64,000 nucleotides of DNA. It comes from Pectinatus brassicae. Lineage in GTDB: Bacteria; Bacillota; Negativicutes; Selenomonadales; Selenomonadaceae. The notes beneath the pieces are model-generated. The model searched no databases, had not been told where the DNA came from, and was given only the letters and a program-made list of their open reading frames with translations. Of the stretch, positions 40,295 to 54,096 are shown one piece after another. Position 1 is the stretch's first letter. Each line of letters opens with the position of its first letter. The stretch covers positions 1 to 64,000 of the forward strand of contig NZ_JACHFH010000015.1 in assembly GCF_014201835.1 (NCBI RefSeq), written 5' to 3'. A program made the translations under genes and the position numbers.

Positions 40295-40389
40295 AAAATA
40301 AGAATATATTATAAATTAATTGTTGCAGCATTGTATTTATTTTTTTGTCACAACATCCGCAGCACTATTTTTATAAGGATGTGGAGATT

Positions 40390-41184
40390 ATGTTAAAAAA
40401 ATTAGATGAAAAAATTTATCTAGCTGGTAAATACAATGGAATGGAAGCAATAGACGGTTGGTCATTACCTACTATTAGCAGAGGCGAAAAAGGTGAATAT
40501 ACTGATTCTACCGGCAAAGAATTATATGGGATATTTAAGCAAAACATTCGTGGCAAAAATACTAATTATTTTATTATCAATAAAGGAAATATAATATATG
40601 ATTGTGAATTGCCAACTGATATTGATAACATTTCGATTGACTCGCCTTTAATAAGCTGGAAGAATTTATGCTATCATACACCAACTGTTTTGCCTGATAA
40701 AAACAATAATCCTCTAGGGGCTAATTATACGGCGTTACTGGCAATTATTGAAGAACGTAAACCGTGTTCTGTTTTTGTAGTAGATTCAGATATTCAATTA
40801 GCCAATTCTATAAATCTGATGAAAAAATTTGCTATAGAGTATAGAGTTCATAGAAATTATAAAGACATTACCAGCTATTATGTAAAAGCAGCACGAAAAG
40901 GTTTTATCCATGAATATGTCGATTTTAATAGGTATATTTCAATATTATATAAGTGTGCGGAATCAGCTGGTTTCAATCTTTTTGAAGAAATTGATATTAC
41001 TTTGATTTATGTAATGCTAGATAAAGAGATAATAGAAATTATGGAACTGTTTGAACTTATGAATGAATCATATCCGGAATTAGTAGTGGTAACAGGACTT
41101 TGTTTAGGATTTCCACCACAAGCTGTACTTGGCTATTTAACAAAGGGATCTACAAGAGTTCGGTTTAAAAATAAATGTAAATAA
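40390..41184 (+). CDS. Protein of unknown function
   Basis: 264 residues, soluble, no signal or membrane segment. The start ATG 40390 has GTGGAG five bases ahead; a TTG at 40345 is possible but has no site. The N-terminal half is beta-rich (LAGKYNGMEAIDGWSLPTIS) and the C-terminal half mostly helical (ITLIYVMLDKEIIEIMELFELM). No family motif is recognised. It stands alone between structured RNA copy A and a bidirectional terminator. Confidence 0.75.
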   Translation: MLKKLDEKIYLAGKYNGMEAIDGWSLPTISRGEKGEYTDSTGKELYGIFKQNIRGKNTNYFIINKGNIIYDCELPTDIDNISIDSPLISWKNLCYHTPTVLPDKNNNPLGANYTALLAIIEERKPCSVFVVDSDIQLANSINLMKKFAIEYRVHRNYKDITSYYVKAARKGFIHEYVDFNRYISILYKCAESAGFNLFEEIDITLIYVMLDKEIIEIMELFELMNESYPELVVVTGLCLGFPPQAVLGYLTKGSTRVRFKNKCK

Positions 41185-41518: not shown

Positions 41519-42240
41519 TTATTGGAAATTGTGATGCTTAATAAATGCCGTTTGAACTTCTTTGGCAACACTTCGAGCTAGCGGGATACGAACAGTGGTT
41601 AATAAACGAAGTTCATTATTTAAGCAGTCACGAATATAATTTAAATTAACCACATAGGAGCGATGTGGTTTTATGAAATCTGGACAGTGAAGCAATTTTC
41701 TTGCAGCTATGGTAAAACCGTCCAGTCCTTCTAATGTCGTATTATCGATAAGATGACATTGATATTTTTTTTGCATAGCTTCAATATAAATAATATCAGA
41801 TAATGGCAAACGATGGAAGCCATTTATACTGCGTAGTAATAGTGAATGATTATTATTTAAGCGCGATTGTGCTGTAAGGCGGTTAAGTAAATGAAAAATT
41901 TTGCGTGACTGCAATGGCTTTAGCATATAATAATATGCTCCTAAATCATAACTTTTTTCCACAAAATTAGTCAAGGCACTAAGAAAAATGATTTTAGCGC
42001 TGGGATTGTTTTGCTTTAAATGATTAATTAAAATAATTTCTTTTTTTTCAGTAGACAGTATATCTAAAATAAATACATTATAATAACGTTTTTTTGCCGT
42101 ACTGAATAATTTAGAGCTTCAGTATCAGAAAAAAATTCATAATATATAGTAAGATGTTTCTTTTTTTTATATTCTTCGAATAGCATAGTAAGATATTTTT
42201 GATCATTTGAATTGTTTTGCCAAATTGCAATACGTAGCAT
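41519..42240 (-). pseudogene. LytTR-type response regulator with a frameshift in a poly-A tract
   Basis: From ATG 42240 (AAAAGGAC upstream) the frame encodes a receiver-like start (MLRIAIWQNNSNDQKYLTML), reaches ...YSVRQK and ends early. The adjacent frame continues RYYNVFILDILSTEKKEIIL, then SALTNFVEKSYDLGAYYYMLKP (receiver end) and a LytTR domain (LPLSDIIYIEAMQKKYQCHL ... FIKPHRSYVVNL). The switch falls at a run of seven A (8 would restore the frame, about 42088-42095). LytTR regulators bind paired repeats 21 bp apart, and such repeats lie just upstream (42364-42391). It may be a pseudogene, a phase-variable gene or a sequencing slip. No histidine kinase partner is encoded in the window. 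Confidence 0.8.
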
Positions 42241-42363
42241 AAAATCAGTCCTTTTCAGATTATTTTGCTGCTATATAGTGCGATACTATCTATAAGTATA
42301 TCATAACGTATAAAAAAATCCTAAATATCTGACATAAAACATTAAGAATAAAGGGGAAAACAT

Positions 42364-42473: not shown

Positions 42474-43178
42474 GTGGCAGAAAAAGTAGAAGTTTATATT
42501 ATGTCAATCAAATCAGTTGTCAATAAGGTATTAGATGATTTGTTGCCGCTTTTTTCTATAGCACGACAAAAGAGGATTAAACAATATTATTTTTGTGCTG
42601 AACGTAATAGGACGATGCTGGCAGAACTTTTAGTACGTTATTTATTAGCTAAAAAAACTGGGAGTTCGGCAACTGATATTATTTTTGAATATAATTGTTA
42701 TGGCAAGCCTTATTGGCCGGAAGCAAATTATTCTTTTAATTTATCCCATAGTGGAAATTGGATAGCATGCAGTATTGGGCAAGAAGAAAATGGTGTTGAT
42801 ATAGAAAGCTTGGAGGAAATAAGCATGCAAATAGTTAAAATGCATTTTTCTTCAACAGAATATGAATGGATTATTGCGCAACCAGAAATAAGCCGATCTT
42901 TAGAAATATTAAAATTATGGACGATAAAAGAAAGTTATTTAAAATACCAGGGGGTGGGTATAAATCAAAGTCTTGATTTAGTTGATGCACTGGCGCTTAG
43001 TGCTTGTAAAGAAAATATTGGTGTTAAAAACTTTATATTAAAGGATAAAACGATTTTGGCTGTGTGCACAAAGAATCAGTTGATACCGACGAAGATAAAT
43101 GAAATTGCTTTAGAACAAATAGTATCAGGAGGTGAATTTAATGAAATATTCTTCACTGACTCAGCAGATATATACTAA
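42474..43178 (+). CDS. Sfp-type 4'-phosphopantetheinyl transferase
   Basis: 234 residues from a GTG (GGGGAG upstream). Motifs: NLSHSGNWIACSIG (P1/P2 region), NGVDIE with the Mg-binding Asp and Glu (about 106-111) and KLWTIKESYLKYQGVGI (the WxxKE(A/S)xxK motif). It transfers phosphopantetheine from CoA to the carrier domains of the NRPS encoded downstream. First gene of the biosynthetic operon; its 3' end overlaps the MATE reading frame. Confidence 0.93.
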   Translation: MAEKVEVYIMSIKSVVNKVLDDLLPLFSIARQKRIKQYYFCAERNRTMLAELLVRYLLAKKTGSSATDIIFEYNCYGKPYWPEANYSFNLSHSGNWIACSIGQEENGVDIESLEEISMQIVKMHFSSTEYEWIIAQPEISRSLEILKLWTIKESYLKYQGVGINQSLDLVDALALSACKENIGVKNFILKDKTILAVCTKNQLIPTKINEIALEQIVSGGEFNEIFFTDSADIY

Positions 43179-44863
43179 AATATTTATAACTACCTTTGTT
43201 GTACAGATTGTAACAACAGCTTCGTTTTTTCTTGATTTCATTATTCCAGGAAGCTTTTTAGGTGAGGAGGGCATTATCAGCGATAACGCTTACAATGCCA
43301 TTAGTGCTTTTGATGCAGGCATTTGCTGATATGATGTCTCTGGGGGGCAGTAATGCATTTAGTATGGAAATCGGTTCAGGCAATAAGGAAAAGGCACATT
43401 GTTATTTTACGGCTACATTGGCAGCATCATTTGTTATTGGTCTTGTAATAATGATTATAGGCTTGGTATTTATTGATCCGTTGGTTAAAATACTCGGTGC
43501 TAGTGGTGATTTATTCAATATGACCAGGCAGGTTACCATGGTTAGTCTGGGGTTTTTCCCCATAATGCCCTTATATATATCACTGGATTTTTTTGTGCGA
43601 AATGATGGAAGTGTTACACTGGCCATGATATCTAATGTTGTTTTTATTGTATGTAATGTTATTTTGGACATTTATTTTGTAGGTTATACAACAATGGGAA
43701 TAGTTGGTGCGCCGTTAGCATCGATAACAAGTGCTATTATTGGCATGATTATTTTGTCAATTGCCTTTTTTCATAAAAATACGATATTATTATTTACTAG
43801 AAAAATGGGAGTAGAAGATATTATATATATAATGAAAACAGGTAGTGGACTTACGTTTCGTCAAATATATCAAGGTGTGACAACCATGATTTTCAATAAT
43901 CTCATAATGCGTTTTTATGGTGGCGATGGTGTAGTAGTATATACTGTAATTGTGAATGTAATGGCCCTGGCTACAGGATTTTTTGCCAGTATTCGGGAAA
44001 CGATACAGCCGATTATTGGTACGTATATGGGGGAAAACCATGTTAATGGCATTAGAGCGACCATGAAAATTGCCAGAGATACAGGTGTCTTTTTCTGTAT
44101 TCTATTATGGTTGTTTTTAGAATTTATGCCTACATATTTTTTGCATATTTTTGGTATCTATGATGAGGCATTGCTGCTTCAGATACAACAAGGAATTCAT
44201 ATTTATGCCTATGTTTTCCCCTTCTTATGTTTTACAGAAATCATGAGCAGTTATTATCAGTTTATTGGTTATCCTCGGCTGACTTTTATGATTTTAACAA
44301 TGAAAGGATTATTGCTAATGTTACCTGTTAGTGCGTTGGGATTATGGTTGGGTGGTCTCAATGGATTATGGCTGGGCTTTATTGTCACAGAGATTTTGGC
44401 GGTAATATATTTAATCTTGGCTACAGCAAAAAAAGCAAGACAGTTTAGCCCACCAGTATCTAGTCTGATGTTATTAGATAAAAGTAAACAACGACGTTTG
44501 ACGTTGGAAATAGAGCTTGATATAGATTCACTTATGGATGCAGTATATTCTGTGCATGATTTTTTGCAGCAGGAAAATATAGAAGAAAAATACTGTAATC
44601 CTGTATGTTTAGCATTGGAAGAACTTGGCGGAAATATGATACAGCATAATCCTGACCAAAATAATAGACGATTAGAGATTCAATTGATTATTCATGAGGA
44701 GCTTACACTTATACTGCGGGATAATTGTCGTAGCTTTAATACAGAAGAAAAGCGGGAAGCAGCAGGACAATTAGGCTTGCGTCTAGTTCGGGGTGTAAGT
44801 AACAATGTCAGCTATTTGCCGACAATAGGTTATAATCGTAAAATATTAAGTTTTGAAGCTTAA
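43141..44863 (+). pseudogene. MATE exporter fused to an RsbW-like ATPase domain; frameshifted near its 5' end
   Basis: ATG 43141 (AGGAGGTGA ahead) starts the expected MATE N-terminus (TQQIYTKIFITTFVVQIVTT ... DFIIPGSFLGEE). One extra G in the GGG at about 43268-43271 then breaks the frame, which resumes as ALSAITLTMPLVLLMQAFAD and runs open to 44863. A GTG at 43262 could restart translation of a 533-residue protein lacking the first helix. After the transporter part (about 400 residues) a GHKL/HATPase_c_2 domain follows, with N-box LALEELGGNMIQHN and G-box GQLGLRLVRGV. The fusion probably exports the NRPS product and engages the STAS/RsbW switch. The frameshift may be real or a sequencing slip. 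Confidence 0.82.
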
Positions 44864-44901: not shown

Positions 44902-47900
44902 ATGGAAGAAAAAAAGTACGGTAAATTAAAAGAAATTATATCAAATGAGGATATGAAATTTTATGCAGATTGCAATACAAATAAATATACTTGTGATCCC
45001 AATCAGACAATTGTATCTTTATTTAGGACACAAGCAGCAAAATATCCGCAAAATATTGCTGTTGTTTTTAAAAATAAGCAGCTTACATATAAGCAGCTAG
45101 ATGATATCACTGATAAATTAGCGTCATATATTTTCAGTTTAGGTTTAGGCAAGGAAGATGTTGTTTCAATATTGATAAATCGTTCTGAGTATATGCCTGT
45201 TACAGGATTGGGCACAGCCAAGGCTGGTGCGGCTTACCAGCCTCTTGATCCATCATATCCGGCTGAAAGGCTTAATTTTATGATGCAGGACGCCAAGGCA
45301 AAATTGTTGATTGCTGATGAAAATTTGTTGCCAATTATTAAAGATTATAATGGGCCAGTATTACTAACGAAGAATATTGGAAATTTGCCCAATTCTAAAG
45401 TGCCGGTTATTCCCCAAATACATGATTTGTTTATTTTATTATATACATCAGGTTCTACAGGTATTCCCAAAGGATGTATGATTGAACATGGCAATTTATT
45501 GGCATTTTGCCAAGACCACATGAAAAGATTTAATTTGGCTGAGAATTGTGCTGTAGCAGCCTATGCCAGTTTTGGGTTTGATGCTAATATGCTGGATATG
45601 TATCCAACATTATTGGCCGGTGCAGTACTCCATATTATTCCAGAAGATATGCGATTGGAGCTAGAAAAACTTAATAGCTATTTCAATGATAATCATATTA
45701 CGCATTCATTTATGACTACACAGGTAGGCCGTCAATTTGCTGTGGATATAAAAGATAATCATTCATTACGCTATTTAATGGTAGGTGGTGAGACGTTGGT
45801 ACCTTTAAAGCCGCCCGCTAATTATCGTTTTTTTAATATGTATGGGCCAACAGAATGCACCATCATCAGTACAGTATTTGAAGTAGATAAATTTTATGAT
45901 AATGTTCCTATTGGCAAACCTTTAGCTAATATGAATTTTTATATTTTAGATAAACGTGGGGAAAGGGTTCCTGTTGGTGAAGAAGGGGAACTTTATCTAG
46001 CCGGTCCCCAAGTGTCGCGCGGTTATTTGAATCGTCCAGATAAAAATGAGCAGGCCTATAAAAAAAATCCGTTCAGCAACGAGCCGGAATATGCCAGAAT
46101 GTATTATACGGGAGATGTTGTGCGGTTACTTGCTGATGGCAATATCGAGTTTATCGGGCGGCAGGATTCACAAGTAAAGGTACGCGGTTTTCGTATAGAG
46201 CTTTCTGAAATAGAACAGGTTATTCGTGAATTTCCTGATATTAGTGATGCTACTGTTATTGCTAAGCAAGCACCAGCTGGAGGGCAGATGGTACTTGCCT
46301 ATATAGTAGCTGGAAAAAAAATATCGATTGATGACCTGCATGCCTTTATTGCTGAGCAAAAACCGCCCTACATGGTGCCAGCAGCAACAATGCAAATTGA
46401 TAAAATTCCGCTTAATCCTAATATGAAGGTAGATAAACGTAAATTACCGGAAATGAGTTTTACCACACAGGATAATAATAGACCATGTACGCAGCTGGAA
46501 AATGATTTGATGAAAATTATTGCTGATATTATAGGCGTTCCACAAATACCTATAGATATGCCGATTATCAATGCCGGACTTACATCTCTATCGGCAATTA
46601 AATTAGCTGGACAAATATTAAAAAATTACAATTGCAGTATTGATGTCAAAGCATTATTACAAGGTGCCAGTCTTATCAGTATAGAAAATATTATTGTTAA
46701 CGAACTCTTGCAGAAAAAAACAGTTACTGACAAAATTAAACCTCAGCAAAAATATTGTCCGCTGACTCAAACACAGCTTGGCATATATTTAGAATGTATG
46801 AAAGAAAATGGCTCAGATGCATATAATATCCCATTATTGATTCGTTTACCGCAAATGATTGATATTTTACGTTTAAAAACAGCGATACGGCAAGCCATTG
46901 ATTGTCATCCTATTTTTTATTCAATAATAACTACTGATGCTGTTGGTGATGTTTATATGAAAGCTCAGAAAGATTTTACATGGGCTATTGAAGATGTTGA
47001 GATATCTGAGGCAGTAATGCCGCCAAAACTTACAGCATTTTCCTTAAAAGAAAAGGCGTTATTTCGCGTACGTATTCTACAAACGGAGAAAGCATTATAT
47101 TTAATGCTGGAAGTTCATCATATTATAGCTGATGGAGAGTCGGTAATGCGTCTGTTAGATGAAATAAATCGAGCTTATGATGGATATGTGCTAGAAGCAG
47201 AAACGTACACTGCCTTTGATTTAGCCATTGATGAGGCTGCTGCCAGAAATAGTGATGAACTTGTAGTGGCAAAGGCTTATTATGATTCAGTATTTAAAGG
47301 TGTAGCTGTTGATTCATTGCCTGCTGCTGATATCTGGGGAAAAGAATCCTTTTTATGCCGGAGCCGTCATGCTGTTATGATACAGCCAGACAAGATAAAA
47401 ATGCTTTGCAATGATTATAATGTTACGCCGAATGTGTTGTTTACAGGAATATTTGGTATAATACTGGCAAGATTTATGGGAACGGATGAAGCCTTATTTA
47501 CAACTATTTATAATGGACGAACTGATCCGCGTACTTTTAACATGGTGGGAATGCTGGTTAAGACATTACCCGTATATGCGGCAATGTCCTTGGCAACATC
47601 GGTAAAAGAATATATGCAGCTACTGCGTGGACAACTGGATGACTCTAAAAGCAATGATATTTACTCATTTGCAGAGATAAGCAGAAACTATAATATTTCC
47701 AGTGATATTTTATTTGCCTATCAGGGAGAAATGCTCACAGGAATTAAGTTGGGAGGAGCGTCGGTAGTTCCTGAGCAGCTCGATTTAACTAAAGCAATGG
47801 CAGCTATAAGTGTAGAAGTATTTCAGCGCGAAGATGATTTTGAAATTTTAGTGGAATATGATGGTGCAAAATATTCGGCAGGATTTATGGAAAGCTTTGC

Positions 47901-50900
47901 TGATGCCTATCGTATGGGGATTATGAGCATCTTTAATGCACAAATAATTTCTGATATAAAACTATTGTCGCCTGAGGGATTAAAAAAATTGCAGGAAATG
48001 CATAATACGTATTGGCCAGTAGAAGAACGACCAGCATATCGATTACTGCAAGATAGTGCTGCTAAATATCCGGAACGAATAGCCGCTATTGCAGCGGGAG
48101 AAGTGATGACCTATGATGAATTGAATCGGGCGGCTAATCGTTTAGGCAGAAGCTTGCGGCAAACTGGCTTGGGGACGGAGAAAATTGCTGGGGTAATGCT
48201 TGAACGCAGTTCATTGGTTTATATTGCTCGTCAGGGGGTACTTAAGGCTGGCGGGGCATTTTTACCGATAGATCCGCAATATCCTGATGAACGCATTTCT
48301 TTTATATTGCAGGACTCTCAGGCTGGTCATTTGATTGTCAGCCGCGCAGTATATGATAATCGCAAAGAGTTTTTAAACGAACTTAATATTAATATACATT
48401 TTGTTGATGAACCTGATAGATCAATATCAGATGAAAATCTGGATATTGATGTTTTACCGCAGGCATTGGCTTATTGTATTTATACATCAGGCTCTACTGG
48501 TAAACCAAAAGGCGTAATGCTGACTCAGCAAAATTTAGTTAATTTCGTTGATAATAATCCTAAAAACCATGAAATAGTGGGCTATACCAAATATGGAAAA
48601 GTATCATTAGCTTTAGCAGCTATCACTTTTGATGTATCTATTATGGAAGAATTTATTCCGCTGGCTAACGGGCTTACCATATGCATGGCAACAGAGGAGG
48701 AGATTCATAATCCGTTAGCGCTGGAAAAACTCTGCCGTGATAATAATGTTGACATAATGACCTGCACACCATCATTTCTGCTTAATATTATTGATATACC
48801 GGCCATGCTACCAATTATTAAACAGATAAAGTCGATTGATTTGGGCGCTGAGTCATTTCCAGCAGCACTCTATGAAAAGTTGCGGATGATAAATTCCACT
48901 GTTTATATTATGAATGGGTATGGACCAACTGAAACAACGATAAGCTGTACGATGGCAGTCATAAATAGTGCTGAGCATATAACAATCGGTATTCCTAATA
49001 CTAATGTAAAAGTAGTAATGGTTGATGAAAATAATGAGCCACTGCCAATAGGGGCACTCGGAGAAATGGTTATTTTGGGGGCAGGTGTCGGACGAGGCTA
49101 TATTAATCGTGAGGAGCAAACTAAAAAAAGCTTTATTAGACTATGGGAAATGCCAGCATATAAAAGCGGCGATTTAGCCCGTATTTTAGTTAATGGTGAA
49201 ATAGAATTCCATGGTCGTACGGATAATCAGGTCAAATTACGGGGACTGCGTGTGGAATTAGGCGAAATAGAAGCAGTATTAAATACTTTTCCCCAAATAA
49301 AAAGCAGCATCGTTGTAATGAAAAATAATGATGGTGAAGATTTTTTGGCTGCTTATTTTACAGCCGCAGAGACGATTGATAAAAAGGATTTGACTGCCCA
49401 TTTAGCAGCTGCATTAACGCATTATATGGTTCCCGGAGTATTAGTGCAGTTAGAGGAATTTCCCTTAACGGCTAATGGGAAAATTGATAAGAAGCAGCTG
49501 CCGGATGTTGAATGCAATATTGTTAAACGAAGTTATGAGGCACCGCAAAACTCAGTGGAAGCAAAATTTTGCGATATTTTTGCAGAGGTATTAAAGCAGG
49601 ATAAAATAGGCATAAATGATGATTTTTTTGCATTAGGAGGAACATCCCTTAGTGCATCAAAGGTTGCAATGGCGGCAATGAACGAAGGTTATCCAATTGT
49701 TTATAGTGATATTTTTCAATATACCACGCCACGCCGATTAGCTATGCGTAGTTTAGCAAATAATAATGAAACAACAGCAGCTGTAATAGATAAAGAAATT
49801 GTAGATTATGATTATAATTTATTGCAAAGTATTTTAAACTATAATAGTTTGGAGTATGTAAATGAGATAAAAGCGCAATCGCTGGGAAATCTTGTACTGA
49901 TTGGAGCAACAGGCTTTTTGGGGATACATGTGTTAAAACAGTATTTGCAACAAGAAAATGGCATTGTTTATTGCTTAATACGTAAAGGAAAACGTGCTTC
50001 AGTAGAAAAACGGTTAGCAACAATGCTTATGTATTATTTTGATGATACCTATGAGCAAATGATGGGAAATCGTATTAAGTGCGTCGATGGAGATTTAACG
50101 GATGAAAATTCATTACAGCAATTAGCAGACCTGCCATTTACTACAATGATTAACTGTGCTGCCAGTGTTAAACATTTCAGCCATGATGATTCCTTGGAGC
50201 GCATTAATGTGCAGGGAGTGAGAAACCTGATTGCATTGTGTCAACAGCTTAATAAACGTTTGATACAAATTTCAACTGTCAGCGTTGCGGGCGAAGGGAA
50301 AAACGAATTACCGCCCTCAAATAAGCGTATTGCTGAGAATGAGCTTTATTTCGGGCAATTGCTGGATAATGCTTATGTTCATACCAAATTTATGGCGGAA
50401 AGGTATATGCTTGAGGCAATTAAAAATGGTTTGGATGGTAAAATTATGCGGGTCGGTAATCTAATGAGCCGTAATAGTGATGGTGAATTTCAAATCAATT
50501 TTCATACCAATGCATTTATGCGGCGATTGCAAGGGTACAGGGCCTTAGGAAAATTTCCGCTGGGCCTCATGGATGCGCCGGCAGAGTTTTCTCCAATTGA
50601 TTCTACTGCTGGCGCGATCTTGCAGTTGTCAGCTGTTAAAAGTGAGTTTACAGTATTTCATCCTTATAATAATCATCAGATTTTTATGTCTGATGTTATT
50701 GCATCAATGAATCGTCATGGTTTTGTTATTGAGATAGTGGATGATGAAAAATTTAATGAGTGTCTTCATATAGCGATGCAGGATGTAAAATTGTCGAAAG
50801 CTGCCGCCGGTCTTATTGCCTATATGGAACATGATGGTGATACTCGTTATGAAATCGAAGCAGTAAATAAATTTACCATTGAAGCCTTATATCGTTTGAA

Positions 50901-50982
50901 TTATTTGTGGCCAATAACAAGTTTGGGCTATCTTGATAAAAGTATTTCTATGCTGGAACAATTAGGTTTTTTTGATAATTAA
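44902..50982 (+). CDS. Two-module NRPS, A-T-C-A-T-reductase
   Basis: 2026 residues. A1 with YTSGSTGIPKG (about 182) and YGPTEC; carrier T1 with GLTSLSAIK (about 557); condensation domain with HHIIADG (about 739); A2 with YTSGSTGKPKG (about 1194) and YGPTET; carrier T2 with LGGTSLSA (about 1579); C-terminal thioester reductase with GATGFLG (about 1668) and the catalytic YVHTK (about 1823). There is no starter C domain, so the first amino group stays free. Reductive release of a dipeptide aldehyde, with possible cyclisation to a pyrazinone (as in aureusimine synthase AusA), is predicted. Residues lining the A pockets read roughly DALFMGMII and DVMTDGGIS; I cannot assign the amino acids. Confidence 0.95.
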   Translation: MEEKKYGKLKEIISNEDMKFYADCNTNKYTCDPNQTIVSLFRTQAAKYPQNIAVVFKNKQLTYKQLDDITDKLASYIFSLGLGKEDVVSILINRSEYMPVTGLGTAKAGAAYQPLDPSYPAERLNFMMQDAKAKLLIADENLLPIIKDYNGPVLLTKNIGNLPNSKVPVIPQIHDLFILLYTSGSTGIPKGCMIEHGNLLAFCQDHMKRFNLAENCAVAAYASFGFDANMLDMYPTLLAGAVLHIIPEDMRLELEKLNSYFNDNHITHSFMTTQVGRQFAVDIKDNHSLRYLMVGGETLVPLKPPANYRFFNMYGPTECTIISTVFEVDKFYDNVPIGKPLANMNFYILDKRGERVPVGEEGELYLAGPQVSRGYLNRPDKNEQAYKKNPFSNEPEYARMYYTGDVVRLLADGNIEFIGRQDSQVKVRGFRIELSEIEQVIREFPDISDATVIAKQAPAGGQMVLAYIVAGKKISIDDLHAFIAEQKPPYMVPAATMQIDKIPLNPNMKVDKRKLPEMSFTTQDNNRPCTQLENDLMKIIADIIGVPQIPIDMPIINAGLTSLSAIKLAGQILKNYNCSIDVKALLQGASLISIENIIVNELLQKKTVTDKIKPQQKYCPLTQTQLGIYLECMKENGSDAYNIPLLIRLPQMIDILRLKTAIRQAIDCHPIFYSIITTDAVGDVYMKAQKDFTWAIEDVEISEAVMPPKLTAFSLKEKALFRVRILQTEKALYLMLEVHHIIADGESVMRLLDEINRAYDGYVLEAETYTAFDLAIDEAAARNSDELVVAKAYYDSVFKGVAVDSLPAADIWGKESFLCRSRHAVMIQPDKIKMLCNDYNVTPNVLFTGIFGIILARFMGTDEALFTTIYNGRTDPRTFNMVGMLVKTLPVYAAMSLATSVKEYMQLLRGQLDDSKSNDIYSFAEISRNYNISSDILFAYQGEMLTGIKLGGASVVPEQLDLTKAMAAISVEVFQREDDFEILVEYDGAKYSAGFMESFADAYRMGIMSIFNAQIISDIKLLSPEGLKKLQEMHNTYWPVEERPAYRLLQDSAAKYPERIAAIAAGEVMTYDELNRAANRLGRSLRQTGLGTEKIAGVMLERSSLVYIARQGVLKAGGAFLPIDPQYPDERISFILQDSQAGHLIVSRAVYDNRKEFLNELNINIHFVDEPDRSISDENLDIDVLPQALAYCIYTSGSTGKPKGVMLTQQNLVNFVDNNPKNHEIVGYTKYGKVSLALAAITFDVSIMEEFIPLANGLTICMATEEEIHNPLALEKLCRDNNVDIMTCTPSFLLNIIDIPAMLPIIKQIKSIDLGAESFPAALYEKLRMINSTVYIMNGYGPTETTISCTMAVINSAEHITIGIPNTNVKVVMVDENNEPLPIGALGEMVILGAGVGRGYINREEQTKKSFIRLWEMPAYKSGDLARILVNGEIEFHGRTDNQVKLRGLRVELGEIEAVLNTFPQIKSSIVVMKNNDGEDFLAAYFTAAETIDKKDLTAHLAAALTHYMVPGVLVQLEEFPLTANGKIDKKQLPDVECNIVKRSYEAPQNSVEAKFCDIFAEVLKQDKIGINDDFFALGGTSLSASKVAMAAMNEGYPIVYSDIFQYTTPRRLAMRSLANNNETTAAVIDKEIVDYDYNLLQSILNYNSLEYVNEIKAQSLGNLVLIGATGFLGIHVLKQYLQQENGIVYCLIRKGKRASVEKRLATMLMYYFDDTYEQMMGNRIKCVDGDLTDENSLQQLADLPFTTMINCAASVKHFSHDDSLERINVQGVRNLIALCQQLNKRLIQISTVSVAGEGKNELPPSNKRIAENELYFGQLLDNAYVHTKFMAERYMLEAIKNGLDGKIMRVGNLMSRNSDGEFQINFHTNAFMRRLQGYRALGKFPLGLMDAPAEFSPIDSTAGAILQLSAVKSEFTVFHPYNNHQIFMSDVIASMNRHGFVIEIVDDEKFNECLHIAMQDVKLSKAAAGLIAYMEHDGDTRYEIEAVNKFTIEALYRLNYLWPITSLGYLDKSISMLEQLGFFDN

Positions 50983-51049: not shown

Positions 51050-51475
51050 TTATTTAGGTAAAACCAATGATTTTTTGAGCGTCAGTTTATTTTTCCCATT
51101 TGTAAATTCATAAGTTATTCCATCCATGAGCTTTTTAGCCAAATAAATGCCCAGGCCACCAATAGAGCGTTCCTCTATAGATGCATCTATAAGGGGAATC
51201 TGTTTCTGCAAGGGATTAAAAGGTACACCCATATCGCAAAATTGCAAATAAAATATTGATGAATTTTCAATAAAACAATTAATGATAATGACATTTTTAT
51301 CATTTGTATTAGAAAAACCATATTGAACAATATTTACAAAAATTTCTTCGGCAGCTAGATTAATTGGCATTATTAATTGTTCATCACAACTGTAGGATTG
51401 TAATTGTTGTTCAATGAAATCTTGTACAAGATACAATGATTCTATTTTTGCTGGTACAGTTAAAGTGCTTATAAT
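51050..51475 (-). CDS. RsbW-like serine kinase/anti-sigma ATPase
   Basis: A GHKL-fold protein of about 130-141 residues. N-box INLAAEEIFVNIVQYGF (Glu and Asn for Mg-ATP), DMGVPFNP and G-box SIGGLGIYLAKKLMDGI are clear. The first start of the standard set is TTG 51436, but it has no ribosome site and would delete the first strand. In frame upstream lie 13 more residues (IISTLTVPAKIES) that match the usual beginning of this family. The codon ATT at 51475 is six bases after AAGGGG, so a non-standard start is likely. It should phosphorylate the adjacent STAS protein. Confidence 0.88.
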   Translation of the reverse strand: MISTLTVPAKIESLYLVQDFIEQQLQSYSCDEQLIMPINLAAEEIFVNIVQYGFSNTNDKNVIIINCFIENSSIFYLQFCDMGVPFNPLQKQIPLIDASIEERSIGGLGIYLAKKLMDGITYEFTNGKNKLTLKKSLVLPK

Positions 51476-51514: not shown

Positions 51515-51814
51515 TTATTGAATGATAGTTAATATATCAGTAAAACCAGAAATTTCAAGAATTTGCAGAACAGCCTCATTTACATGAAGAAGTTCCATTT
51601 TACCCTTTCCGTTCATTTGTTTTTGTGCCATCAGAAACACACGCAAACCAGCAGACGAAATATATTCAAGCTTGGTTAAATCAAATTGCAGTAAAGTAAT
51701 GTCATGCAAATCTTTTTTTAAGGCATCTTGTAATAGCGGTGCGGTTACGGTGTCTAAACGTCCGGACAAAGTTAATATCAAGGTGGCAGCTGTTTTACTA
51801 GGTATTATTTCCAT
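51515..51814 (-). CDS. STAS-domain anti-sigma factor antagonist
   Basis: 99 residues, the size of SpoIIAA/RsbV. A beta-strand opening (ATLILTLSGRLDTVTAP) is followed by the phospho-site loop EYISSAGLRVF with Ser53/Ser54. AGGAGGAG precedes the ATG. In partner switches the dephosphorylated form binds the RsbW-type kinase and frees its client. It is 39 bases upstream of the RsbW-like gene on the same strand and divergent from the phosphatase gene, so all three form one module. Confidence 0.93.
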   Translation of the reverse strand: MEIIPSKTAATLILTLSGRLDTVTAPLLQDALKKDLHDITLLQFDLTKLEYISSAGLRVFLMAQKQMNGKGKMELLHVNEAVLQILEISGFTDILTIIQ

Positions 51815-51927: not shown

Positions 51928-51973
51928 TATAACATATGGCAATTATCTTATTATTGTAATGGAGACTGGTAAT

Positions 51974-54096
51974 ATGCTTAAGAAAACTAAAATTACAACA
52001 AAAATATTAATTATTATATTGATAACTGCTGTGAGTGCATTAGCAAGCATAGGTCTTATTTCTTATAATGAAATATCTAAAATGGCACAATATACACAAC
52101 AAGCCAGCAGTGAGCTGGGAAATATATCGGCAAATGAAAGCAGACAGGCTTTAGAGCAGCAAGCAAAAAAATATTTATTGAAAATGGCTGATATGCAAGC
52201 CGAGAATATAAATTATAATTTTGATAACATCGCTGCTAAGGTAGATAGTATGGCACAGTACATGGAAAAAATATATGCAAATGCTGATGCTTTTGCAGGT
52301 CATTTTCTATGCCCTTACCTAACCAGGTACAAGCGGGAACGGCCAGCGAAAAATATATGCTGGCGCCTGATGTCGTTGAAACCCCTATATTAGATAGAGA
52401 AATCAAGCTTATTTCTAATGCCACATATATGTTTTCGGCAATTTATGCTAATAATAATATAATTGATAATTGCTATATAGGAACCAAAAGTGGTATTTGT
52501 TATGACTATTCCAAAGACAATGATTTAACTGCTGATTATGATCCCCGCAAAAGGGAATGGTATAAAAAGGCAATGGCACGAAAGGGTAATATAGTATGGA
52601 TTGGAACATACACTGATTCCGCAGGGAAATTGGAGATAACATGTGCCAAAGCATTTAAGGATGCCAACGGCAATTTTATTGGTGTAGTAGCAACTGATAT
52701 CATACTTAAGCAAGTAATAGACAAAATTATTGGTTTACGTATCGGCAGCAATGGGTATGCATTTTTACTCGACGATAAAGGAGCATATATTGCACATCCT
52801 GATTATATGCAGGCAGGATTTAATGTAAATGCAAGGGAAAATGCAAGCGATACTTATAAAAAAGCGCTTACAAATATGATAAATGGTAAATCTGGGACAC
52901 AAAAAATTTCAATAAAAGATAAAGAATATTATTTAGCTTATAATGTATTACCAGCAACTGGCTGGTCATTAGGATTAATTATTCCTATCAAGGATGTTGT
53001 AGCTGCATCGGAGGCATCAAAAACAAAGATTGATGGCTATAGCACTGCAACACAAAAATATATAAATCAAAGCATTAACGATATTGTTTGGCGGTTCTTT
53101 GTATTATTTATATTATGCTTAGTTTTTTTTGTAGTAATATCTTGCCAATTAGCTGGAAAAATAACTAAGCCTATTAAAATATTGACAGCAGGTGTAAAAA
53201 AAATCAGTGCCGGAGAATTCAATTATAAAATTGCTGTAACAAGTAAAGATGAGATAGGTGAATTAGCTGATAATTTTAATAAAATGGGGACGGATATTCA
53301 ATCATATATGCGAAATCTTGCAAACTCTATAGCTGAAAAAGAAAAAATTAACAGTGAGTTGAATGTAGCAGCTGATATTCAAAATGATATGCTGCCAAAA
53401 ATATTCCCCAAATATGAACATATTAATGGGTTAAATCTTTATGCCAAAATGCAGCCAGCAAAAATTGTTGGTGGTGATTTTTATGATTTTTTTTATATGG
53501 ATGATAACCAAACAAAATTATGCGTTGTAATTGCTGATGTTAGTGGGAAAGGCATTCCCGCTTCATTATTTATGGTAATAGCGAAACATATCATAAAAAC
53601 AAGTGTTCTAAATAGTGAGAATTTATCGGATGGTATTAGTAATGCCAACAATCTTTTATGTGAGGATAATAATACCAGCATGTTTGTTACAGCTTTTATT
53701 GCGGTATTAGATTTATCAGATGGTTGTCTGGAATATGTGTCCTGCGGACATAATCCACCTCTTTTTGCGTCAAATACAGAGGAGTTTAGATTTATTAAGG
53801 TTAAGAAGGCATTACCTTTGGCTGTAGCGGAAAAGATAATATATCAATGCGATAAATTATATATGGAAAGTGATGATACATTAGTTTTATATACAGATGG
53901 TGTTAATGAAGCAGCAAATGAAAATAATGAACTATTTGGCGATAATAGATTTATAAATATATTAAACAGATGCCATAATAATAATATTGAAAATATTGAT
54001 GATTTTTTACGACAGGAAATCTCTAAATTTGCAGGAAAAGCTGAACAGGCTGATGATATTACAACACTTTTTATTCGTATAGTGCCAAAAGATTAG
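51974..54096 (+). pseudogene. Membrane sensor with PP2C/SpoIIE phosphatase domain (RsbU-like), frameshifted
   Basis: ATG 51974 (GGAG upstream) begins a signal-anchor helix (KILIIILITAVSALASIGLI) and an extracytoplasmic sensor region. After ADAFAGHF the frame is lost; the next frame resumes at MPLPNQVQAGTASEKYMLAP and runs to 54096. A single missing T in TTTT (about 52302-52305) would explain it. The rest comprises the dCache-like domain (GTYTDSAGKLEITCAKAF, GYAFLLDDKGAYIAHPD), a second helix, HAMP (KITKPIKILTAGVKKISAGE) and PP2C (GGDFYDFFY, VIADVSGKGIPASLF, DDITTLFIR). It should dephosphorylate the STAS protein in response to an external signal. Decay, phase variation or sequencing error are possible. 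Confidence 0.85.

Follow-up and report, generated by a model that had tools for sequence, protein, structure and literature searches.

A MATE exporter fused to an RsbW/SpoIIAB-type GHKL domain recurs across Selenomonadaceae and is linked to STAS and SpoIIE genes

Results

Genes at the locus

We analysed a 64,000-nucleotide stretch of the Pectinatus brassicae genome (contig NZ_JACHFH010000015.1, positions 1 to 64,000; hereafter the window). Here a gene encoding a MATE exporter with a C-terminal GHKL domain is flanked by genes for a 4'-phosphopantetheinyl transferase (PPTase) and an A-T-C-A-T-R nonribosomal peptide synthetase (NRPS). The window also brings together the components of a partner-switching system: a SpoIIE-type phosphatase, a STAS protein with a phosphorylatable serine and a GHKL kinase (Table 1). 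Upstream of the NRPS cluster, positions 40345-41184 (+) encode a 279-aa protein with no Pfam or NCBIfam match. A LytTR response regulator gene at 41519-42270 (-), which lies in the NRPS neighbourhood as do the MATE and SpoIIE genes, is split by a frameshift.

Table 1. Features of the exporter locus, in window coordinates
Feature	Position	Strand	Evidence
Sfp/AusB-like 4'-phosphopantetheinyl transferase, overlapping the MATE start	42474..43178	+	PF01648, PF22624; NF047349 below its cut-off
MATE N-terminus, first reading frame	43141..43261	+	Ribosome-binding site AGGAGG at 43129-43134; alignment to L174
Frameshift interval, both frames open	43262..43326	+	Frame analysis; alignment to relative
Remaining MATE transporter, two MatE repeats, second frame	43262..44440	+	PF01554 3.4e-20; AlphaFold2 pLDDT 90.4 (533-aa frame)
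Fused RsbW/SpoIIAB-type GHKL domain	44489..44863	+	PF13581 over cut-off; AlphaFold2 and PDB fold search; profile match to RsbW 6m36
NRPS, A-T-C-A-T-reductase, intact	44902..50982	+	Pfam; AusA model 1059 bits, below cut-off of 2500
Stand-alone RsbW-like GHKL protein, motifs intact	51050..51436	-	PF13581 3.6e-17
STAS protein, conserved serine (YISSAGLR)	51515..51814	-	PF01740 1.6e-14
dCache-HAMP-SpoIIE phosphatase, frameshifted near 52300	51959..54096	+	PF07228 7.1e-46, PF02743; two overlapping frames

The exporter gene is split by a frameshift

A preliminary description of this DNA had placed a MATE exporter fused to a GHKL ATPase domain at 43141-44863. Pfam searches bore out both domains, but not the single reading frame. 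Two MatE stretches, both over the curated cut-off, and one HATPase_c_2 match lie in a single 533-aa frame (43262-44863), the latter covering residues 422-519 with 30.9 bits against a cut-off of 27.4 (3.1e-7); the AlphaFold2 model of this whole frame has a pTM of 0.88. The ATG at 43141, just behind the ribosome-binding site, opens a frame that ends at the stop codon 43327-43329. The transporter and the GHKL part are in the +1 frame relative to this ATG, which is closed upstream at 43259-43261.

The nearest relative, the 576-aa protein of L174, is encoded in one frame. Residues 1-45 of the first window frame align to its residues 1-45 (31% identity over 45 aa, 1e-6), and the 533-aa frame picks up from its residue 44 with 36% identity. 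Because the second frame continues where the first leaves off, 43141-44863 is, as judged from this alignment, an ancestral single gene into which a frameshift has come somewhere between 43262 and 43326. As assembled, the MATE gene is interrupted, and is thus either broken or misread, while its relatives are intact. Since they carry it as one open frame, a chance junction or a mis-assembly joining the MATE and GHKL parts was ruled out. Programmed frameshifting was not favoured either, as two unrelated neighbours are also frameshifted and the relatives are uninterrupted.

We regard it as an evenly balanced possibility that the window copy is simply dead and that the pathway, three of whose genes are frameshifted, is decaying; this reading concerns the window copy alone and is compatible with our preferred explanation of the family. 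The frameshifts in the LytTR, MATE and SpoIIE genes all fall between 42.1 and 52.3 kb, and a rough coding-frame scan of the window gave no other clear case. Against decay, the 6-kb NRPS gene and the PPTase, STAS and stand-alone GHKL genes are intact, and single-base assembly errors, which from the assembly alone look the same as decay, are possible.

The fusion is a recurrent architecture

A profile covering the last MATE helices and the GHKL domain was run over 380 Negativicutes genomes and listed at least 150 matches, at least 148 of them near full length. Most of the listed matches lie in frames of 560-615 aa, and most come from the window's own family, Selenomonadaceae, where the architecture is common. 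More than 100 relatives encode both parts in a single gene, which disposes of the idea that the parts might be separate genes in every relative. Carriers include rumen Selenomonadaceae metagenome-assembled genomes and Selenomonas ruminantium subsp. lactilytica TAM6421, in which the gene lies on plasmid pSRC2 and has no annotation beyond 'MATE family efflux transporter'. Among 398 genomes drawn from the phylum, five outside Negativicutes (G394, G511, G519, G619 and G687) carry full-length fusions. The MATE-GHKL family is widespread but apparently undescribed.

Four genomes of the same genus gave no match to the window protein. A search for a second fusion within the window's own genome returned a 558-aa C3 gene without the GHKL tail, and none of the other HATPase matches there, histidine kinases or GHKL proteins, has a MATE part. 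One protein of this genome (L002:1468-2463, 331 aa) appears to combine an RsbW-like GHKL domain with a further domain and resembles a protein of L086 (2799-3806) in which Pfam finds such a domain followed by DJ-1/PfpI.

The fused domain has an anti-sigma kinase fold with variable catalytic motifs

By both Pfam profile and predicted fold, the C-terminal ~130 residues of the fusion form an RsbW/SpoIIAB-type GHKL domain. An AlphaFold2 model of this domain alone, built on an alignment of 57 fusion proteins, showed a confident GHKL fold (pLDDT 86.9, pTM 0.79). Its best matches in the PDB were SpoIIAB, UsfX and RsbW, mostly in complex with STAS antagonists or sigma factors; the best Foldseek hit (1.8e-8) was SpoIIAB bound to its STAS antagonist. 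Z scores to UsfX, RsbW and SpoIIAB were 16.2-15.2 and those to histidine kinases at most 9.0, with rmsd values of 1.9-2.5 for the top matches except for one multi-domain chain at 8.2. Searched against PDB sequences, the domain profile matched only RsbW (including 6m36) and SpoIIAB. The domain thus has the Bergerat fold nearest to anti-sigma kinases, and the RsbW-like identity first read from the sequence holds by profile and by fold.

The two boxes on which that first reading was based, the N-box LALEELGGNMIQHN and the G2-like QLGLRLVRGV, are indeed present in this region of the window copy, with intact catalytic motifs: E-L-G-G-N (EELGGN) in the N-box, R-D-N-C in G1 and L-G-L-R-L in G2, so that the N-box Glu and Asn and the G1 Asp of RsbW/SpoIIAB-type kinases are all in place. 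Behind the last transmembrane helix lies a positively charged stretch, TAKKARQ, which under the positive-inside rule suggests that the GHKL domain is cytoplasmic.

Across the family the catalytic residues vary. Glu, Asn and Asp are all intact in the window copy and in 27 of the 57 aligned domains. In a set of 51 fusions, the N-box Glu is present in 47, the N-box Asn in 21 (lost in 30/51) and the G1 Asp in 30 (lost in 21/51), so many fusions cannot be canonical kinases. Judged by these residues, some branches look kinase-like and others look like non-catalytic binding modules. In contrast to the kinase residues, an arginine preceding the G1 position and a terminal asparagine hardly vary.

Could the C-terminal domain be no more than a remnant or a structural tail that binds no partner? 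Its motifs have decayed in several branches, and the tails of L026, L037 and L038 have no Pfam GHKL match, but the intact motifs of nearly half the aligned copies and a position conserved across Bacillota make this very improbable.

Fusion genes lie near STAS and SpoIIE genes

As a control for the loci around 59 fusions, we took plain MATE loci from the same genomes. Of the 59 fusions, 33 had a STAS or SpoIIE gene no more than 6 kb away, whereas none of 40 plain MATEs did (p 3.5e-10). To allow for the non-independence of relatives, the genes were also clustered at 40% identity, which left 13/22 fusion clusters against 0/11 control clusters (p 0.0016). Wherever a STAS or SpoIIE gene is at most two genes away from a fusion, the two share a strand, and all six fusion loci analysed from the five non-Negativicutes Bacillota genomes have SpoIIE within three genes. 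The STAS-loop serine is kept in 25/25.

A typical operon, as in L090 and L105, consists of MATE-GHKL, a GNAT-like gene, dCache-HAMP-SpoIIE and GHKL. In L170 the order is STAS, one further gene, MATE-GHKL (fused GHKL, 65.5 bits) and SpoIIE. Four loci have STAS and SpoIIE without another GHKL gene within 8 kb, leaving the fusion as the only GHKL protein; together with the excess over plain MATEs, this supports the link to a STAS protein that the preliminary description had suggested. The other idea of that description, a transporter that senses export flux, is speculative. Degenerate fused GHKL domains are near SpoIIE more often than intact ones (18/30 vs 6/27, p 0.007). A division of labour, in which a degenerate fused domain is paired with an intact stand-alone GHKL, did not reach significance (10/30 vs 4/27, p 0.13).

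These neighbourhoods also bear on a rival idea, in which the GHKL domain senses energy or nucleotide levels by binding ATP and itself gates the transporter, with STAS and SpoIIE forming a separate circuit. The near-invariance of the pre-G1 arginine and terminal asparagine beside variable kinase residues would fit such a sensor, as would the 23/59 fusion loci with no switch gene within 8 kb. The strong linkage to STAS and SpoIIE, on the same strand and across classes, does not, nor does the fact that many copies have lost the Mg-binding Asn, and we consider a direct sensor unlikely.

Biosynthetic neighbours and STAS-tagged enzymes

Genes for adenylation/ligase, condensation/NRPS, GH3, ATP-grasp or PPTase proteins lie within 6 kb of 25/59 fusions and 1/16 controls (p 0.007). 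A PPTase gene just upstream of the exporter, as in the window, is also found in L174, and a GCS2-type ligase gene adjoins the pSRC2 copy. When the window NRPS was compared with 41 relatives, its two best matches outside its own genome (L101 and L173) were both encoded beside MATE-GHKL genes. The window NRPS has the domain order of the aureusimine synthetase AusA and lies below the cut-off of the corresponding model (NF047350; Table 1). This order makes it plausible that a peptide product is released by reduction.

Some loci have, immediately ahead of the exporter gene, a STAS domain joined to an enzyme part: an APH-like kinase in L099 and L091, an NRPS condensation domain in L115 and L172. By Pfam, the STAS-APH-like fusions beside MATE-GHKL are L099:7232-8428 and L091:7260-8462, and clustering, or length with a STAS match, adds L100, L101, L104, L179 and L181; some loci continue with a GH3 synthetase joined to a GT2 domain (L099:11555-14191, L180:2601-5222). 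STAS-condensation fusions of NRPS type lie beside or near MATE-GHKL at L115:7102-8694, L172:6787-8388 and L173:3855-5444, and in L079 and L096. On pSRC2, several genes downstream of the MATE-GHKL gene, L048:21988-23220 encodes a 410-aa protein with a C-terminal STAS domain.

That STAS is often attached to enzymes weighs against the fused domain being a membrane-tethered anti-sigma factor, which would hold a sigma factor and so couple export to transcription. The nearest folds are those of anti-sigma factors, including sigma-bound SpoIIAB and UsfX, as such a role would predict. However, a search with a model of the window's SigH-like protein, which would overlook distant sigma families, detected no sigma gene in the 6 kb around any of the 59 fusions, and in the window the SigH-like gene is ~10 kb away from the fusion. 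We think this role improbable.

Discussion

A proposed partner switch acting on an exporter

Starting from the observed domains, fold, recurrence, gene linkage and conserved STAS serine, we infer the binding, phosphorylation, effect on transport and substrate as follows. In the explanation that we favour, with somewhat better than even confidence, the fusion exports a small peptide-like product through its MATE part, and a local SpoIIE-STAS-GHKL switch uses it as its docking target and, in copies with intact motifs, also as a kinase. The exporter, with its cytoplasmic C-terminal GHKL domain, would be the membrane member of this switch, which would serve a pathway for a small peptide or amino-acid-derived product, in the window that of the NRPS with its reductase exit. 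The phosphatase, through its dCache sensor, would dephosphorylate the STAS serine; unphosphorylated STAS, free or enzyme-fused, would then dock on the exporter's GHKL domain and switch or couple export. A GHKL kinase, the fused one if its motifs are intact and otherwise the stand-alone one, would rephosphorylate STAS and release it. Docking may open, close or localise the transporter, or bring STAS-tagged enzymes to it. In a more specific form that we put forward tentatively and hold to be rather unlikely, the exporter's GHKL domain is a phosphorylation-controlled dock for STAS-carrying biosynthetic enzymes, and the signal read by SpoIIE physically couples synthesis to export.

Against the favoured explanation stand the 23/59 fusion loci with no switch gene within 8 kb and the kinase residues lost from many fusions. 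Several features of the window also count against it: the genes for STAS and for the stand-alone GHKL protein, a second intact GHKL besides the fused one, are found past the NRPS gene and on the other strand, and the MATE and SpoIIE genes are both frameshifted.

If the favoured explanation is true, partner-switch logic would reach as far as the export of natural products, controlled post-translationally, in anaerobes of the rumen and elsewhere, and these loci would offer a clean test system for such control. The family also provides a genomic handle on peptide pathways that ordinary annotation reports as just a 'MATE family efflux transporter'.

Comparison with known systems

Partner switches are mainly known for controlling sigma factors, and a few control enzymes. 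In the open-licence literature, searches for a MATE-GHKL fusion, for STAS with condensation domains and for the Pfam names jointly returned nothing relevant, in agreement with the earlier statement that no characterised example was known. The single domains are known; what appears new, as judged from that literature, is an exporter carrying a partner-switch kinase and linked to STAS-tagged biosynthetic enzymes.

On the biosynthetic side, the nearest likeness is to the AusA/AusB aureusimine pathway of Staphylococcus, with which the window shares an A-T-C-A-T-R NRPS and an AusB-like PPTase; it differs in scoring far below the AusA and AusB cut-offs and in its linkage to exporter and switch genes.

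In the established scheme of partner switching, STAS, once its serine has been dephosphorylated by a phosphatase, binds the GHKL kinase and is let go again on phosphorylation (PMC8256260). The Bacillus systems RsbU-RsbV-RsbW and SpoIIE-SpoIIAA-SpoIIAB have the same three components as found here, namely a SpoIIE-type phosphatase, STAS with a serine and a GHKL kinase of the same fold. Unlike in those switches, here one GHKL domain is fused to an exporter, there is no linked sigma factor, and STAS is sometimes fused to an enzyme. Pseudomonas aeruginosa has the SiaABC(D) system, where the phosphorylation state of a small protein is set between a phosphatase of PP2C/SpoIIE type and a kinase with the GHKL fold; the SiaABC switch has been proposed to act on an enzyme rather than on a sigma factor (PMC7647112). 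SiaB is a close fold match to the fused GHKL domain (Z 14.0); the target of SiaABC(D) is a diguanylate cyclase, whereas here the exporter itself carries the GHKL domain. The SulP/SLC26 anion transporters join a secondary transporter to a cytoplasmic STAS domain (PMC8256260). They resemble the fusions described here in combining a secondary transporter with a cytoplasmic domain of partner-switch type, but the MATE-GHKL proteins belong to another transporter family, and the part that they have fused is the GHKL side of the switch, not the STAS side.
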